A stretch of 48,681 nucleotides of DNA from a virus, in the IMG/VR virus record IMGVR_UViG_3300010391_000237, positions 1 to 48,681 of that record; one strand, written 5' to 3'. Under the pieces are notes generated by a model. That model did not search any database and had not been told where the DNA came from. It was given only the letters and a program-made list of their open reading frames with translations. Below, piece by piece: positions 1 to 48,681 of this stretch (positions are counted from its first letter, which is position 1; every line of letters starts with the position of its first letter). The position numbers were made by a program, and so were the translations under genes.

Positions 1-57
1 TCCCTGCTCTGTCCAGATAATCGGGCGTAAACCTAGCCTTAGCCAGTCCCAGAGCCA
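1..57. repeat. 57-bp terminal direct repeat, left copy (circular closure)
   Basis: Bases 1-57 are identical to 48,625-48,681. An open reading frame crosses the join without interruption, so the repeat is best read as an assembly overlap of a circular or circularly permuted molecule. Confidence 0.9.
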
Positions 58-1212
58 TGAATTTCCTGTAAAAAATGATTTTCCATTTCTTCTAACCAAA
101 AAGTTTGTTAATGGTACTGACAAACACCATACCTTTTTTTTACCAATTTCTTTTTTAAAATCTCCCCTTAATTTTGCGAACAGGCTTTCATTCATATTAA
201 GCCTAAAATCCCCCCTATTGCTTTTAGTTAATGTACAGGCTACACCATTTATAGAACAAAGACCCTGTAAGTACCCTAAAAATTTTTCTGTCCCATATAC
301 TATATGGCAATTCACCTTTTTATAAGAGCTACCATCTCCTAATAATGTCTCCTCTATAAATATTCTTGCTTGTCTATATGAACATTTATATAAACAAGCT
401 GGAATAGCGTTTTTTTCAATCTTAAACTTATCTATAAACTCATGGCTGAATATTCTTGGAAGGTGCAAACTATAACTCCTAAGCGGTTGCTTCTTTAATA
501 TTCTACCACAAATTTCTTTTATGTATGGTTGCCGAGAATATTTGTTGTATTTAATTTTTAACTCTTTTAAAATTAATTCAATTCTATCCAAGGTATCTAG
601 TTTTGACTGGTACAAAACAATATCTCCATTCTTGGTTATACTTCCGTCAGTTAATATCCAAGCCATTAATTGAATTTCCAAGTCAGAAATATTAACATCA
701 GAATCTTTATTAATATTGGAAAAACTGGCAAGAGGTATTTGATAGCGACTGTTATTAGGGTCATACTCTTTAACAGTATTATACTTAAACCCACCAACGG
801 TTTTATGCAATATCCTATGGGTATCAGTAATTGCCATACTCACTCTTTGACTTTCAAACACATTTATACCTTCTGATTCCTTTATAATAATTTCATTTAT
901 TCTCTGCCATTCCGATAGCCCATTTGCATTTAATCCTACTACTAAATCGTTTTTTGATACATCAATATATCTTTTCCAACCCTGCATTGTAAATACTTCG
1001 GTATCTTCACTCAAGCAATCGTGATTGCCTATCACATAGATTAAGTTCTTGATTCCGAGCAAGGTTTCTATGCACTGAGGAGTCTCTGGATAGCCGTCTG
1101 TAATATCGCCTAGTACAATCAGAGTGTCGTTATCAGTGAATTTAGCTCTTTCAAGCACTTGTGATAACGCTTTATTCGCCCCGTGTATGTCACCAACACA
1201 AAGTGTTCTCAT
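1..1212 (-). CDS. Lambda-type Ser/Thr protein phosphatase, N-terminal part, containing an intein (gene continues through the circular join)
   Basis: This reading frame is open from ATG 1212-1210 to the left edge and continues in the same frame at the right end (48,624 down to 48,187). Joined, the gene has 550 codons. The first 65 residues carry the phosphatase motifs GDIHG, GDITD and GNHD, which bind two metal ions. An intein follows immediately after GNHD, and the frame then resumes with SWLWDW, typical of this family. Removing the intein leaves about 230 residues, close to the roughly 220 of lambda phosphatase. The start codon overlaps the upstream stop as ATGA, implying coupled translation. 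A NinG-like gene lies just upstream on the same strand, recalling lambda's nin region where the nuclease and phosphatase are neighbours. The substrate in this phage is unknown. Confidence 0.93.
   Translation of the reverse strand, partial: MRTLCVGDIHGANKALSQVLERAKFTDNDTLIVLGDITDGYPETPQCIETLLGIKNLIYVIGNHDCLSEDTEVFTMQGWKRYIDVSKNDLVVGLNANGLSEWQRINEIIIKESEGINVFESQRVSMAITDTHRILHKTVGGFKYNTVKEYDPNNSRYQIPLASFSNINKDSDVNISDLEIQLMAWILTDGSITKNGDIVLYQSKLDTLDRIELILKELKIKYNKYSRQPYIKEICGRILKKQPLRSYSLHLPRIFSHEFIDKFKIEKNAIPACLYKCSYRQARIFIEETLLGDGSSYKKVNCHIVYGTEKFLGYLQGLCSINGVACTLTKSNRGDFRLNMNESLFAKLRGDFKKEIGKKKVWCLSVPLTNFLVRRNGKSFFTGNSWLWDWLRLGLRPIIWTEQG
61..1017 (-). other. Intein with LAGLIDADG endonuclease domain (319 residues)
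   Basis: The insert starts with Cys1 in CLSEDTEV (splicing block A) and has a TxxH motif at residues 64-67 (block B). It ends VWCLSVP...VRRNGKSFFTGN, matching blocks F and G, with Asn319 as the last residue and Ser as the first downstream extein residue. The penultimate residue is Gly rather than the usual His. Two dodecapeptide-like segments, ILTDGSI (about 121-127) and LLGDGS (about 225-230), indicate a LAGLIDADG homing endonuclease between the splicing halves. Excision should ligate GNHD to SWLWDW and restore the phosphatase metal site, so the enzyme should be inactive until splicing. The boundaries are read directly from motifs and host-protein continuity; splicing activity is inferred. 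Confidence 0.92.
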
Positions 1213-3088: not shown

Positions 3089-4891
3089 TTAGTTAAATAT
3101 TTCTTGTGCTATCTCATAGGATGGTATCTGGTATTTGTCATAGAACGAACCTTTATGGAAGAATATTGTACTCTGCCCCCCGATACCGAATTCTCGGTCT
3201 TTTATCTGGGTGATTGTAAACATAGCCTTGTCTTCTGGGAGCATATTATCGTTATACGGCGCACGATGTCCAATGACAACCGTATCTGCGTTGTGACCTA
3301 TCTTACCAGACCCACGCATAGAGTCTATACTCGCTACAACATCCCTGTCTTTACCGCCAGCCTTTCTCATGTGATGTATCAGCATAATCGGCTTAGGTAA
3401 GCCCTTAGATAAGTTTAGTATTTTATTGACCGCATCTGTTTCTGCCTTTACTTCTGAGAAATTATTAGGTTTTGATATGAGGTCAAAGTTGTCTATAAAC
3501 ACTAAGTCTGGGTTTATTTTTTTGATTACTTCTCCTATATTCTCTACCGTTGGGGGAGCTTCCGTGCTAAACCCCATAGGTATTAGGTTGGCAAGTGCCA
3601 GAAGTTCACTCTTTTTCCCCCTATAAAGTTCTTTCTGGTGCGGGCTTATAAGTTTCTTGTCTCTCCATCTCTCCTTTCCTATACAGGCGCACTCTCTGGC
3701 TATTCTAGTTAAGATAGAATCCGTACTCATTTCAAGCGACATATATAATACTCTGTGTCCAAGACGTGCGTTCTTAACCGCCATATCAAAGGCGTATGCA
3801 GTCTTCCCCATCCCTGTATGACCGACTATTATAGCAAAGGTATCTTTTTCTATAGGGGTTATCTTGGAATCGAGATTTTCAGTACCCCATGTGAACATCT
3901 TATCTTCTGAATCTATTTTATCACCAGATGGCTTTTCGGAAATCATCTTATCCACATCCTGTATGTGGGCGAACTTCTTTAGCCAGTCCATAGCTTGCTG
4001 GATGGTCATTCTGCCGTATACTATACAAGCGTCTATGGTTGACCCAGAACCCTCCTTGCCTGAGAACCTGTTTATGTAGTTCTTGGATTCATTTATGGAA
4101 GCCGAGGTTACTACCCCTTTATCGAGTATAAAGTTATTCTTAGTCTCTATACCCAGAGCAGAAAGGACTTCTTTAATCGGGATAGCCTTTACTCTGTCAA
4201 GTATGGGGTCATCCGAAGTTACAGTTTTAATTTCTATTTTTGGCGGAGTATACGGATATGCGGATAACATCTGGCTGGCTGGGATTGGTTCTGAGAGTTT
4301 CTGGAATATACATTTAATCTCGACTGGATTCTTCGGGTCTTTCATGTGAAAGAAATCTGGAAACCTGAGAACTTCGTTTATACTTGTTATAGCTTTGTCT
4401 CCGTGGAAGTAGCCTATAAGCCCGTGGATAATCTGGGAGAATACTGATTTAGGGTCTTGGTGGATGTTCTGCTCATCCCGACCACAGTTTATTGGATAAA
4501 AATTTACCCTCCAGTACAAATGATAGCTTCTCTTGGATTCCACTATGATATTCGGGATGATGGGGGAGGTTTTAATCAGCTTTCGCATTTCCTCTTTGGA
4601 CATATCGTCTATATCCACATATATCCATTCAATAGAGGTTATATTCTCCTCCCTCCTCCCTCCACTACACGGATTAGGAGTGAAGAAAATCCCACCACCC
4701 GCTCTATTAATCTCACACAATAAATCCTTATTCTTTTCGTAATCCGACATCGGGAATATCCGCACCAGTTCTTTACGACCCTTGCCAGAATCATCAAAGC
4801 ATTGGATATACCCATTTTTGAAGATTTCTTGGAACTTTAGCATAAAGTGGGTTGGTTGTTTGATACCAGAATCGACGCTATGCTCCCCCAC
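3089..4891 (-). CDS. AEP primase fused to DnaB-like (RecA-fold) helicase
   Basis: The N-terminal half is an archaeo-eukaryotic-type primase: WIYVDIDD near residue 90 supplies the catalytic Asp pair, SYHLYWRV near 122-129 the conserved His, and EVLRFPDFFHMKDP near 173-186 the third motif. The C-terminal half is a replicative helicase core with Walker A GHTGMGKT near 358-365, Walker B DLVFIDNFDL near 460 and SMRGSGKIGHNADTVVIG near the sensor region. Together they would prime and unwind DNA at the fork. The longest frame starts with GTG at 4891; an ATG at 4843 (MLKFQEIFKNGYIQCF) is an attractive alternative because the 35 bases just before it recur in non-coding DNA at 12,755-12,789. No separate DNA polymerase is visible, so the phage probably uses the host's. 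Confidence 0.93.
   Translation of the reverse strand: MGEHSVDSGIKQPTHFMLKFQEIFKNGYIQCFDDSGKGRKELVRIFPMSDYEKNKDLLCEINRAGGGIFFTPNPCSGGRREENITSIEWIYVDIDDMSKEEMRKLIKTSPIIPNIIVESKRSYHLYWRVNFYPINCGRDEQNIHQDPKSVFSQIIHGLIGYFHGDKAITSINEVLRFPDFFHMKDPKNPVEIKCIFQKLSEPIPASQMLSAYPYTPPKIEIKTVTSDDPILDRVKAIPIKEVLSALGIETKNNFILDKGVVTSASINESKNYINRFSGKEGSGSTIDACIVYGRMTIQQAMDWLKKFAHIQDVDKMISEKPSGDKIDSEDKMFTWGTENLDSKITPIEKDTFAIIVGHTGMGKTAYAFDMAVKNARLGHRVLYMSLEMSTDSILTRIARECACIGKERWRDKKLISPHQKELYRGKKSELLALANLIPMGFSTEAPPTVENIGEVIKKINPDLVFIDNFDLISKPNNFSEVKAETDAVNKILNLSKGLPKPIMLIHHMRKAGGKDRDVVASIDSMRGSGKIGHNADTVVIGHRAPYNDNMLPEDKAMFTITQIKDREFGIGGQSTIFFHKGSFYDKYQIPSYEIAQEIFN
4844..4878 (-). repeat. 35-nt repeat, primase-side copy
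   Basis: The reverse complement is identical over 35 bases to 12,755-12,789 (+). It ends immediately before the internal ATG of the primase gene and contains GGTATCAAA, also present in the upstream operator cluster. Confidence 0.9.
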
Positions 4892-7606: not shown

Positions 7607-7903
7607 TTAATTTAGGTTATATAAATTATGTTTTATTTCTTTCAGCCCTTTTGATAGTGCTAAGTTCATTATTTTGTTTTTAGGCTCTCCCGTTACCATT
7701 GAAGTATGTTCTAATTTTTCTAATGTAACTGGGTTTATAAACTTTATTTCGGTTGCTCCTTTCGCATAAGCCACCGCCTCGGACTCTCTCTGACTGGCAT
7801 AGATACATTTCCCGTTATATTCCACCCTGAACCAAGCTACAGAATAATGCTCACCTATCATTATTATATCAAAGTCTCCGACAGTTTGCAATAGATTTTT
7901 CAT
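7607..7903 (-). CDS. Hypothetical protein
   Basis: A 98-residue protein with alternating strands and helices: VGDFDIIMIGEHYSVAWFRV, a possible Gly-containing turn, then ASQRESEAVAYAKGATEIKF. No family recognised. It overlaps the upstream SVWD-repeat gene by four bases (ATGA type). Confidence 0.7.
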   Translation of the reverse strand: MKNLLQTVGDFDIIMIGEHYSVAWFRVEYNGKCIYASQRESEAVAYAKGATEIKFINPVTLEKLEHTSMVTGEPKNKIMNLALSKGLKEIKHNLYNLN

Positions 7904-8673
7904 TTACATTGTTCAATTAAATCCTTTTTAGTTCCCTCCCACAACACATTGGCTCTTTTACCACCATGCAATCTCAATATATTACCGTCAAAACTTGAGA
8001 CTAGCCCCATATCCCATAACTTTACTGCGTCTGCGAATGGATAACCTTTATGTTTAAACTTTACATATTCCCATTTTTTTAATTTTACCATTGAACCTAT
8101 GTATGCCCCGACAGAAGCCCTGACAGAATCCCAGACAGAAGCCCAGACAGAATCCCTGACAGAATCCCAGACAGAAGCCCTGACAGAATACCAGACAGAA
8201 TCCCAGACAGAAGCCCCGACAGAATCCCAGACAGAAGCCCAGACAGAAGCCCTGACAGAATCCCTGACAGAAACCCAATGTAATAATACCTTTAAGTGCT
8301 TTTTGTTAATTTTAGGCGGTTTTATTTTAAAGGGATGTGTGGGGTTTAGTATCTGTTTTAAGTCCAGCAAAGAATATACCTGTTTTTTCCACTTATTAAA
8401 TTCTGCCCAGCATAATTCTTCGTGCTTAGGTGAAAACCACTCTGGTCTACGTTCCATATCCACTTTGAATATCCACTTATCAGGTTTTAGATAATTTCTA
8501 TTTTCAGGGGTTATTTCTATGCTTGCAAAAGTATTATAAGGCGGGTCTTTATCGTCTTTAAGCTCTTTATCCTTTTTTAAGAATAATTTAATAATATCGG
8601 AATGGGAATCTAACCCAGCTTCCCAGTATACCCTTTTTGATTTGGTTATTAAACATGAAAATGCTTTGCACAT
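7900..8673 (-). CDS. SVW(D/A) tetrapeptide-repeat protein
   Basis: A 257-residue protein. Residues 1-130 are an ordinary mixed domain rich in Trp and Lys (KPDKWIFKVDMERRPEWF). Residues about 133-189 are a run of tetrapeptides SV-[WRGS]-[DAY]. The C-terminal 65 residues form another globular segment (YPFADAVKLWDMGLVSSFDG, RLHGGKRANVLWEG). Similar SVWDSV-type runs occur in phage proteins of unknown function. The repeat probably forms a regular solenoid or helix, and its number is expected to vary by slippage because the DNA is a 12-bp tandem array. It overlaps the next gene and is preceded by a small secreted protein gene. Confidence 0.8.
   Translation of the reverse strand: MCKAFSCLITKSKRVYWEAGLDSHSDIIKLFLKKDKELKDDKDPPYNTFASIEITPENRNYLKPDKWIFKVDMERRPEWFSPKHEELCWAEFNKWKKQVYSLLDLKQILNPTHPFKIKPPKINKKHLKVLLHWVSVRDSVRASVWASVWDSVGASVWDSVWYSVRASVWDSVRDSVWASVWDSVRASVGAYIGSMVKLKKWEYVKFKHKGYPFADAVKLWDMGLVSSFDGNILRLHGGKRANVLWEGTKKDLIEQCK
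8106..8273 (-). repeat. 12-bp coding tandem repeat, 14 units
   Basis: Fourteen consecutive 12-bp units of the form CCCxGACAGAAx (plus strand) encode the SVWD tetrapeptides. Variation is mostly at two positions, and all three plus frames stay open across it, creating spurious ORFs. Confidence 0.92.
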
Positions 8674-15793: not shown

Positions 15794-15887
15794 ATATATA
15801 TGCACAATCTTGGAATTTTCCTAATTATACTACCCCATATCCTGTGACGTGCGGGAATACAGTAGCCACTAATTGTACCCATTATTA

Positions 15888-17486
15888 ATGTACACGCTAA
15901 GTTCGCCCGTAAGGGAGAAACTAAAATCACAGTTAGCCAAACTCCTGTCCGAAAATAAGTGGGACTATATCCGCACTTGGTTCGGGGTATGGGAGACGGT
16001 AGACGGAGTGCCGACAGAGTTAGGTCTTGAGGAGATGGTACATAAATGCCACCTATGGGGGTATCTGTGTATGCCAGAGTTCTTCCGAGCTAGGGGCTGT
16101 GACGCTCATCTGGAGCTTATACGGTGCAATCTTTCAAAGATAAACGAATACAACGCCTTCCCCCGTGGGGCAGGTAAGACTTCCATCCTAGAACTGTGTA
16201 TAGCCTTTGAGTGCGCCAACGGGACTCAGAAGTTCATCCCCGTAATTGAAAAATCATGGGAAGCTGCAAGTGAGATTCTGGCTACCATAAGGGAGGTGTT
16301 CTCGTCAGAGATTGTCAAAAAAATCTACGGTGGTATGATAGGTCGAACCGTCACTGGCGTAGAGGCTGAAAAATCTCCAGATGCCAAAGGCGATATATTT
16401 ATAAACGGAGTACGATTGAGAGGTGTGGGTTTTGATAAGACTATCCGTGGTCTAAAGACTGGAGCATGGCGACCCACCAAGATTTATGTAGATGACGTTG
16501 AAATAGATGTCCACGTTGGAAATCCTGAGCAAAGAGTAAAATACGTTGATAATTATACTAAAGGTATTATCCCTGCGCTGGATATTCAGATAGGGTCAGT
16601 TAAGGTCTGTGGGACTATCCTTCATTACGACTCCCTCCTTCTGAACCTGATTAACCAGCACAAGGGTAATATCTTTAAAGCCTATAACAAATTCGACCCC
16701 AAACACACACTACTATGGGCGGATTATCTGACTTACGAGGTATTAGAGAAGAAAAAAGAGGAGATGATGACCGAAGGCGCGAGAATAAACGCCTTTTATC
16801 AGGAATATCTGAACGAACCCATCAGTGAGGAGGAGAGAGACTTCCACTGGGATGACATCACCAAGACCTATAAGGAGAGTGACCTGAAATTCAAAGAACT
16901 TAACCTGTACGCAGCACTGGATATGGCTCAGGCGGCAGACGGGCTCTCGGATTACACAGGAGTAGCCGTGGAAGCCGTAGATAAAGATGGAAACTGGTAT
17001 AACAGGCTCACAAAGAGGTATAAAAAGGACATTTTAGGCGTAATTGACCTGATATTTGAACTCTGGCAGATTCCTAACATGAGAAAGATAGGAGTCGAGA
17101 AATTAGCCTTCGATGACCAGCTAAAACCGCTTTTAAAGAAAGAAAGTGAGAAAAGAGGCGTTTACCCAGTCGTAGTAGAGCTAAAACACCGTGGGAAGCG
17201 TAAAATAGACCGAATTAAGGGTGCTTTACAGGCTAGATACGTTCAGGGAAGGATATTCAACAAAGAAAACCCAGAAGATGACACTAAATTACTGTGGGAG
17301 GAGCTATATTCTATGGGCGGCGGCATAATAGCCGCCAAAAATGACGACTTAATGGATGCAAAAGCCTATATATCCGACCTAGTAGACGACTTTGCTGGTG
17401 GAGATTACAAAACCAGATGGAAAAAGTCAGGTCGTGTGAGGAGAAAAGACCCCTTAAAAGAGATAAGAAGCACAGTTTCAAACTAA
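15888..17486 (+). CDS. terL: Terminase large subunit
   Basis: The packaging motor: an N-terminal ATPase and a C-terminal RNase H-like nuclease. Walker A is FPRGAGKTS near residue 92; the Walker B-like segment is PTKIYVDDVE near 203. Nuclease acidic residues appear in LYAALDMAQAADGLSDYTGV (about 344), KIGVEKLAFDDQ (about 400) and AAKNDDLMDAKAY near the end. A longer frame opens at TTG 15,873, but the ATG at 15,888 is preferred. About 532 residues, normal for the family. It is followed six bases later by the portal gene. Confidence 0.95.
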   Translation: MYTLSSPVREKLKSQLAKLLSENKWDYIRTWFGVWETVDGVPTELGLEEMVHKCHLWGYLCMPEFFRARGCDAHLELIRCNLSKINEYNAFPRGAGKTSILELCIAFECANGTQKFIPVIEKSWEAASEILATIREVFSSEIVKKIYGGMIGRTVTGVEAEKSPDAKGDIFINGVRLRGVGFDKTIRGLKTGAWRPTKIYVDDVEIDVHVGNPEQRVKYVDNYTKGIIPALDIQIGSVKVCGTILHYDSLLLNLINQHKGNIFKAYNKFDPKHTLLWADYLTYEVLEKKKEEMMTEGARINAFYQEYLNEPISEEERDFHWDDITKTYKESDLKFKELNLYAALDMAQAADGLSDYTGVAVEAVDKDGNWYNRLTKRYKKDILGVIDLIFELWQIPNMRKIGVEKLAFDDQLKPLLKKESEKRGVYPVVVELKHRGKRKIDRIKGALQARYVQGRIFNKENPEDDTKLLWEELYSMGGGIIAAKNDDLMDAKAYISDLVDDFAGGDYKTRWKKSGRVRRKDPLKEIRSTVSN

Positions 17487-41467: not shown

Positions 41468-42217
41468 ATGGAAGTTAAGTTACCAAAAATAGAAAAACTT
41501 ACCAAAGTAGTAGCCCTGTTTGACCTGCACATACCAAATAATATCCCGCTAGACGGGATTTATAATTTTCTCAAAGATGAGAAGCCAGATATTGTAATCC
41601 TTGGGGGGGATTTTATGGATATACAAGCCCTAAGCCACTGGAGTCTGGCTGGAGGTAAAAGACTTACCCTAGAGGGTAAAAGATTCCAGAAAGAGTGTGA
41701 ACAGGCTACAGAGATATTAGACAGGATAAGAACGTGCGTAGAGGGTGCTGATATAATTTATGAAGGAGGAAATCACGAGGATTGGGTAGAGCAATATATC
41801 GAACAGCATCCAGAAATGGATGGGATTATAAATCTACCGATTATGCTGGGGCTTGCGGATAGGGAGATTAAATGGATTCCGTACAGAGATAATAATAACT
41901 TTTATAAGGTCGGAAAATTGTACTATGTACATGGAGAGTATACAGTATCTAACCACGCCAAGAAGATGCTTAGTGTGTGGAACTGCAATATACGATACGG
42001 ACACCTGCACGACCATCAGGTATATTCTAAAACATCCCGCAGAGGCATAGGCGACTTTCATAAGGCTGTATCTGTACCGTGTTTATGCAAAAAAGGAGAC
42101 TATCTGATAGGAAAGTCAGATAACTGGTCACACGGATTCCATATCGCCTATGTCAAGCCCAACGGTAATTTCTTTGAATATGTGATTCATTATAGACGGT
42201 CACTTTTACTTCAATAA
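41468..42217 (+). CDS. Calcineurin-like metallophosphoesterase
   Basis: A 249-residue enzyme with the full metal-site series: FDLHIP (DxH-like), GGDFMD (GDxxD), GGNHEDW (GNHE), YVHGEYT and YGHLHDHQ (GHxH). These proteins hydrolyse phosphodiesters or phosphomonoesters; phage members often act on nucleic acids or nucleotides. It is distinct from the intein-containing phosphatase of the leftward block. It has its own promoter, so it may be expressed apart from the virion genes. Confidence 0.9.
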   Translation: MEVKLPKIEKLTKVVALFDLHIPNNIPLDGIYNFLKDEKPDIVILGGDFMDIQALSHWSLAGGKRLTLEGKRFQKECEQATEILDRIRTCVEGADIIYEGGNHEDWVEQYIEQHPEMDGIINLPIMLGLADREIKWIPYRDNNNFYKVGKLYYVHGEYTVSNHAKKMLSVWNCNIRYGHLHDHQVYSKTSRRGIGDFHKAVSVPCLCKKGDYLIGKSDNWSHGFHIAYVKPNGNFFEYVIHYRRSLLLQ

Positions 42218-47785: not shown

Positions 47786-48181
47786 TTAATCATTTAATAA
47801 ATTATCTGTTAATTCTTTATAGTGAAGTTCTAATTTTTTTAAATCCTCAACTGTGAATTTAACTGTAGTATTAGCTGTTTCTTCCAGTTCTCTTATCCAC
47901 GTCTCTCCGTATTTCTCAAGCATAAACAGGGCATAAGCCGATGCGTTACCTCCTAGGTTTATATTGCAGTGGAAACATTGCGGATGTACATTTTCTGCTA
48001 TGAACCTGCAAGCATTTCCCCTCCCCGCAGGTACGAAGTGCCCAGCTTGCATTTCTTTCCAGTGCTTAGTTGTAGAACAGGAACAGCACTTAACAAATCC
48101 ATCTTTATCAGCATATTTCTGACGTATATACCTGCTCATTACTGACCAAGTTTTCTTTTTTTGTATTGTTAGTTTTGACAT
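47786..48181 (-). CDS. ninG: NinG/Rap-like recombination nuclease
   Basis: A 131-residue protein with the NinG layout: VKCCSCSTTKHWKEMQAGHFVPAGRGNACRF (zinc Cys pair, then the His of the HNH-like core), ENVHPQCFHCNINLGGNASAYALFMLEKYG, and a helical C-terminal (DLKKLELHYKELTDNLLND). NinG/Rap is a structure-specific endonuclease that helps resolve recombination intermediates. It is slightly shorter than lambda NinG, lacking part of the N-terminus. It is next to the protein phosphatase, as in the lambda nin region. Confidence 0.88.
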   Translation of the reverse strand: MSKLTIQKKKTWSVMSRYIRQKYADKDGFVKCCSCSTTKHWKEMQAGHFVPAGRGNACRFIAENVHPQCFHCNINLGGNASAYALFMLEKYGETWIRELEETANTTVKFTVEDLKKLELHYKELTDNLLND

Positions 48182-48186
48182 TTATT

Positions 48187-48681
48187 TTAGTTACGGCCCT
48201 TACATTCTGGGTACAAAGTAGATACTTTATCTGACTGCCAGACTTCTTTAGTATCGACATCCATCAAGCTCAATTTTCCTCCCCATCCAGCCCCCGTATC
48301 CATCAATATGATATTGTTTCTTATAATAGGCTTATCTGTGTATCTTTCGGTTGTGGTGTGACCTAAATAAATCTCTTTGAATCTATGTTCTGTTATATTC
48401 AGCCCTCTCAGAACCGCATCAGCGGTGTTTCTGTCCCAAGAGAGTTCTTCTACCGTGGCAGAGTATATATCTGTGTATAAAGGTATCCCGCCGTGTACAA
48501 AACATCTGTTCTCTGAGTCTATGTAATATGGTAACGCTTTTTTGAAGAAATCTCTGTGCTTAATCATCAGTGGCTTAGGATTTACCTTAGCGTCTTTCAG
48601 GTAAGCGGCTATGGTTGCTTTACCTCCCTGCTCTGTCCAGATAATCGGGCGTAAACCTAGCCTTAGCCAGTCCCAGAGCCA
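48187..48681 (-). CDS. Lambda-type Ser/Thr protein phosphatase, C-terminal extein (continues at position 1212-1)
   Basis: This is the downstream half of the phosphatase that begins at 1212. Reading leftward from 48,681 it gives WLWDWLRLGLRP and then continues in frame past an internal Met at 48,567 to the stop at 48,187. It carries the remaining family motifs: FVHGGIP (metal-binding His) and YLGHTTTE (GH motif), then MDTGAGWGG near the end. Taken alone it would be misread as a 126-residue protein starting at 48,567; closing the circle shows that start is internal. It lies six bases from the NinG-like gene. Confidence 0.9.
   Translation of the reverse strand, partial: WLWDWLRLGLRPIIWTEQGGKATIAAYLKDAKVNPKPLMIKHRDFFKKALPYYIDSENRCFVHGGIPLYTDIYSATVEELSWDRNTADAVLRGLNITEHRFKEIYLGHTTTERYTDKPIIRNNIILMDTGAGWGGKLSLMDVDTKEVWQSDKVSTLYPECKGRN
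48625..48681. repeat. 57-bp terminal direct repeat, right copy
   Basis: Exact copy of bases 1-57. It falls inside the phosphatase coding sequence, which argues against a packaging-end repeat placed between genes. Confidence 0.9.

Follow-up and report, generated by a model that had tools for sequence, protein, structure and literature searches.

A phosphatase gene lying across the two ends of a phage contig raises the question of what interrupts it directly behind its metal-site motif GNHD, and how such an insert came to occupy an active site. The window, meaning the whole 48,681-nt stretch analysed here (IMGVR_UViG_3300010391_000237), begins and ends with an exact 57-bp terminal repeat (1-57 = 48625-48681) and, on this sequence overlap, is a circular contig closed through the repeat. 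A sequence-only reading had proposed that one minus-strand frame runs over the join, from 1212 to 1 and on from 48624 to 48187. We confirmed this frame, which is uninterrupted over 1650 nt (549 aa and a stop codon, without an internal stop). The accompanying statement that a linear ORF scan misses the intein was incorrect: an open-ended 404-aa ORF from such a scan already contains the N-extein, the entire intein and the C-extein as far as its residue 20. The circular join splits the C-extein only, and the intein (61-1017, minus) lies wholly on one side of it. The calculated masses are 62.9 kDa for the precursor, 36.8 kDa for the intein and 26.2 kDa for the ligated enzyme, in line with the sizes of about 37 and 26 kDa expected earlier for the two products. 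The features are collected in Table 1.

Table 1. Features of the intein-containing phosphatase locus in the window.
Feature	Position	Strand	Basis
N-extein, 65 aa, NinI-like PPP phosphatase, ends in metal-site motif GNHD	1018..1212	-	phrog_246 match of spliced protein; GDxHG, GDxxDG, GNHD invariant in relatives
Intein, 319 aa, predicted Hint splicing fold and LAGLIDADG homing-endonuclease domain; Cys1, block B TDTH, Gly318, Asn319	61..1017	-	family alignment, AlphaFold2, PDB profile, Foldseek
LAGLIDADG-like motif 1, EIQLMAWILTDGSI, intein residues 114-127, acidic D124 present	637..678	-	Pfam and alignment; position computed from intein start 1017
LAGLIDADG-like motif 2, RQARIFIEETLLGDGSS, intein residues 215-231, acidic D228 present	325..375	-	alignment; position computed from intein start 1017
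C-extein start, 20 residues (SWLWDW...), +1 residue Ser	1..60	-	joined frame
Remaining C-extein past the circular join, FVHGG and YLGHT histidine motifs, stop codon	48187..48624	-	joined frame; motifs in relatives' alignment
NinG/Rap recombination endonuclease gene, directly downstream of phosphatase	47786..48181	-	phrog_5034 E 1.3e-23; PF05766 E 8e-22
57-bp copy of positions 1-57, terminal overlap of circular contig	48625..48681	.	exact sequence match

By sequence comparison, the host gene product is a NinI-like phosphatase of the PPP family, with a predicted phosphatase activity. The spliced product of 230 aa (N-extein 65 aa, with GNHD ending at residue 65, and C-extein 165 aa) matches PHROG 246 (phrog_246, E 6.2e-46), Pfam Metallophos (8.4e-13) and the lambda-type serine/threonine phosphatase 1g5b (PDB, phmmer, 1.6e-5). 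The metal-site motifs GDxHG, GDxxD, GNHD, H and GH are present and form invariant columns across the aligned NinI-like relatives; both the phosphatase host and the active-site location suggested at the outset stand. In PPP enzymes GNHD carries metal-binding and catalytic residues, and it is therefore plausible that the unspliced precursor would be inactive.

Over its full length, including the join, the spliced protein aligns with the phosphatases of Cellulophaga phage phi40:1 and Leptolyngbya phage Lbo-JY46 and with IMG/VR relatives at 44-52% identity. This end-to-end alignment with intein-free phosphatases is evidence for the join as well as for the boundaries of the intein. The 57-bp overlap is short, perhaps merely the assembler's overlap, and the join is known from it, so that two different molecules might have been closed artificially at a common 57-mer; we regard this as extremely improbable, since the joined C-extein stays in register with the phosphatase domain and a second NinI-like gene (L085, IMG/VR contig 3300038674_000341) has the identical architecture inside a single contig without a join. 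The adjacent NinI-like phosphatase and NinG/Rap genes would constitute a lambda-nin-like neighbourhood, as in the lambdoid nin region. The rest of the phage genome is poorly matched (TerL at 15873-17486, DnaB-like helicase at 3089-4891); megablast of window positions 1-25000 against phage records gave no match, and a scan of the window for tRNA and Rfam families found none. A 12-bp unit (CCCAGACAGAAG-like) occurs as a tandem array at approximately 8106-8290, within overlapping ORFs at 7900-8673 (minus) and 8099-8494 (plus).

The insert (CLSEDTEV...RRNGKSFFTGN) lies between GNHD and SWLWDW, and its deletion restores the conserved host protein. It has the appearance of a class 1-type intein, with a predicted Hint fold and a two-motif LAGLIDADG endonuclease, and would be expected to splice. 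The splice-junction residues C1, N319 and S+1 are all present. Block B reads TDTH, and all 12 aligned inteins share its T and H; in block F, position F:4 is Cys (KVWCL), and the penultimate residue is Gly318, not the usual (non-obligatory) His. The extent of 319 residues, the boundaries and the two LAGLIDADG motifs were thus read correctly from the sequence. Single-sequence Pfam search of the insert gave LAGLIDADG_3 as the only passing family (5.3e-5, above its cut-off) and no Hint hit, so the proposed check against Hint profiles failed in its simple form and succeeded at the level of the family. A profile built from the window intein and 11 aligned relatives detected the PDB inteins AceL NrdHF (3.1e-14), Spl DnaX (7.1e-10) and PI-PkoII (6.2e-8), and Pfam Intein_splicing matches 4 of the 12 family members. 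The AlphaFold2 model (pLDDT 92.7, pTM 0.89) has as its best solved Foldseek matches the TliVMA (E 2.6e-15, TM 0.71 on query) and PhoVMA inteins, followed by PI-SceI and, lower down, I-DmoI; in a BFVD fold search predicted structures of viral phosphoesterases match the window intein as well. A class 3 intein, which has no nucleophile at position 1 and a WCT triplet, was ruled out by Cys1, the F:4 Cys alone being insufficient. A free-standing or intron-borne endonuclease was ruled out by the in-frame insertion, the exact splice residues and the Hint fold.

The combination of GNHD with an intein proved to be known. A tblastn search of phage records with the complete protein yielded, besides intein-free phosphatases, 103 records from Mycobacterium phages that matched over the intein; most are RidgeCB-type phosphoesterases and a few are methylases. 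RidgeCB gp51, annotated as containing an intein, reads ...EGNHD/CSWTN...HLTGN/SRARDY, the identical GNHD/S junction, and about 100 mycobacteriophage records have a homologous intein there. Its 317-aa intein has R157 and G316, the residue numbers published for the recombination directionality factor (RDF) intein of Bethlehem gp51 (PMC5050341), and the correspondence between the two rests on this match of numbering. The Bethlehem intein spliced completely in a reporter, its penultimate Gly is native, and the G316H substitution slows splicing (PMC5050341). Both the insertion site, which the sequence-only reading had suggested to be new, and the penultimate Gly are therefore already known from the mycobacteriophage RDF intein, and further cases are described below. 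In recent records, among them Mycobacterium phage terelak and PQ362659, the phosphoesterase intein is labelled as an HNH endonuclease; its endonuclease is LAGLIDADG-type, and the label is likely an annotation error.

Very probably, the window gene encodes a NinI-like phosphatase precursor with a class 1-type LAGLIDADG intein between GNHD and Ser+1, which would be spliced post-translationally and would home at the DNA level. Class 1 splicing and LAGLIDADG homing are suggested by the anatomy and by the tested RDF relative, Cys1 and the parallel with RDF being the basis for placing the window intein in class 1. Cys1 would attack and the chain would be passed to Ser+1 (the class 1 route); Asn319 would cyclise next to the non-His (Gly) penultimate residue, and the intein would be excised. 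GNHD would then be ligated to SWLWDW, restoring the active site. The endonuclease probably cuts intein-free GNHD-coding alleles in co-infecting phages, and repair of the cut allele would copy the intein in.

The Cys at F:4 and the Gly in place of the penultimate His indicate that the splicing chemistry is not textbook. This noncanonical appearance would also fit a decayed, non-splicing intein in an effectively dead phosphatase gene, and relatives do show decay at this site (in L112 the acidic residues of LAGLIDADG are gone, and L115 is 227 aa long without the endonuclease core). We consider decay in the window very unlikely: the 549-codon frame is intact, no splice-junction residue and neither acidic residue of the endonuclease has been lost, the active-site motifs of the C-extein are conserved, and Gly318 is compatible with a class 1 intein, as the RDF intein splices with a native Gly there.

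An intein placed directly behind a metal-site motif and using Cys chemistry might alternatively act as a regulatory switch that delays splicing, and with it phosphatase activity, until a redox, metal or stress signal arrives, as conditional splicing has been described for other inteins (discussed in PMC5050341). This role is unlikely, slightly less so than decay. No signal or conserved regulatory feature was found. The intein is missing from almost all NinI relatives and is thus not needed for the enzyme's role, and in the reporter the homologous RDF intein reached complete splicing with no such signal (PMC5050341). The active-site placement is explained by conservation of the motif as a homing target together with resistance to imprecise loss.

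The spread of such inteins was followed by scanning for junction DNA patterns, GNH(D/E)/C-[hydrophobic]-x-x-D-T in IMG/VR and GNHD in the genome collection. GNH(D/E)-site inteins were detected in eleven further distinct contigs and several unrelated phosphoesterase families, including one NinI-like gene. Inteins follow GNHD in L080 (near-duplicate L086), L083, L084, L085 and L090, and GNHE in L111-L116, with L117 truncated; the GNHD/C junction occurs in 7 inteins. In the genome collection the junction scan gave one real intein, L090 in a Melainabacteria MAG contig, the other hits being chance or intein-free. A scan for the GGNACN junction variant gave chance hits only, and the intein had no match among plasmids. 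Close-relative IMG/VR scans with the spliced phosphatase alone or the intein alone likewise gave no match; alignment-based scans found the relatives. The second NinI-like gene with a same-site intein (L085) is an intact 566-aa ORF, and its intein is unannotated. At GNHE, the L115 intein (L115:2159-2839, minus) is the reduced form mentioned above, and the L112 intein has kept its length; together they represent several stages of the intein life cycle, a natural decay series at one motif. In Rheinheimera Barba phages the intein lies one residue earlier (GNH/C). The window itself carries a second, intein-free metallophosphoesterase at 41468-42217 (+) (phrog_221, E 1.4e-25; motif GGNHEDW), a possible second homing target.

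The 54 loci found by extein-alignment search, of which about 40 are full-length NinI relatives and the others truncated or distant, all lack the intein. Ser directly follows GNHD, giving a splice-competent site, in only one of these NinI relatives (L023), whereas in all intein carriers the +1 residue is Ser or Cys. GC content is 31% in the intein and approximately 42% in both exteins, and GC3 is 25% vs 44%. The lower GC and GC3 and the absence from the full-length NinI relatives are in keeping with a mobile element, and the lower GC and GC3 and the patchy distribution fit recent mobility.

In blastp the window intein matches every GNHD intein at 1.7e-63 to 2.4e-30, and tested inteins from other sites at 2.7e-21 or worse. 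The hosts of the GNHD inteins except L085 have negative global scores against the window phosphatase and are not globally alignable with it. GNH(D/E) inteins thus resemble one another more than most of their hosts do, which suggests, from sequence comparison, motif-directed spread over non-orthologous phosphatases. In the tree the GNHD inteins cluster beyond shuffles; a single GNHD clade is neither rejected (p-AU 0.175) nor supported, with two GNHE inteins mixed in. A well-supported lineage of its own (99/99) unites L111, L112, L116 and Barba. Grouping every GNHD and GNHE intein into one clade is rejected (p-AU 2.9e-5), but not when Barba is included (p-AU 0.08). Co-descent of the window and L085 inteins with their NinI hosts is neither rejected (p-AU 0.485) nor demonstrated. 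In the flanking DNA, conservation is concentrated in the GNH(D/E) codons. The data are read most simply as two or more intein lineages that moved from one phosphatase family to another by way of the conserved motif; ancient descent followed by rapid divergence of the exteins could also explain the pattern. More specifically, and tentatively, one lineage may target GNHD-coding DNA and have crossed among metallophosphoesterase families that are not orthologous (NinI-like PPP, RDF-like and others), and another lineage may do likewise at GNHE. If so, the homing address would be a catalytic motif and not a gene. Inteins in RecD-like and primase/helicase genes of unrelated phages (L101, L105, L107) group together (100/98), two of them (L101 and L105) sharing the P-loop junction G/C...TGN/TGKST. 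This is a parallel to GNH(D/E), with related inteins occupying a single conserved motif of proteins that differ. An unannotated intein of about 356 aa was also observed in a non-phosphatase protein of the megaphage Prevotella phage Lak-B7.

The window intein is a further example of the known GNHD-site inteins, and its evolutionary extension of them is modest and testable. The active-site position of the mycobacteriophage RDF intein is now extended to NinI-like protein phosphatases, and the window intein and its relatives mark GNH(D/E) as a repeatedly invaded site in phage phosphoesterases. With these inteins it can be tested whether homing endonucleases are guided by a conserved catalytic motif from gene to unrelated gene. 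Phosphoesterase genes on phage contigs may, in addition, be mis-annotated or split in two.

Among known systems, the subcluster A1 mycobacteriophage RDF intein (Bethlehem/RidgeCB gp51) is homologous to the window intein (26-28% identity, tblastn E ~6e-30) and shares with it the GNHD/S junction, the length (317 vs 319 aa), Cys1, WC in block F, the TGN end with penultimate Gly and a LAGLIDADG-type endonuclease. It differs in its first LAGLIDADG motif (TDS vs TDG), in its actinobacterial host and in residing in another family of metallophosphoesterases, which does not align globally with NinI. The L085 gene belongs to the same phosphatase family as the window gene (46.5% extein identity) and has the closest intein found (41% global identity), which ends in SGN and is followed by Cys at +1, where the window has Ser. 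The phosphoesterase inteins of L111-L116 and Barba, full-length or reduced, use the same conserved metallophosphoesterase motif, with the junction after Glu or one residue earlier, respectively, instead of after Asp. The Cellulophaga phi40:1 and Leptolyngbya Lbo-JY46 phosphatases belong to the same enzyme family and have GNHD, but are without the intein. TliVMA and PI-SceI, solved class 1 endonuclease-bearing inteins, have the overall Hint and LAGLIDADG architecture in common with the window intein, but reside in another host protein and site, with a sequence identity of 10-14%.
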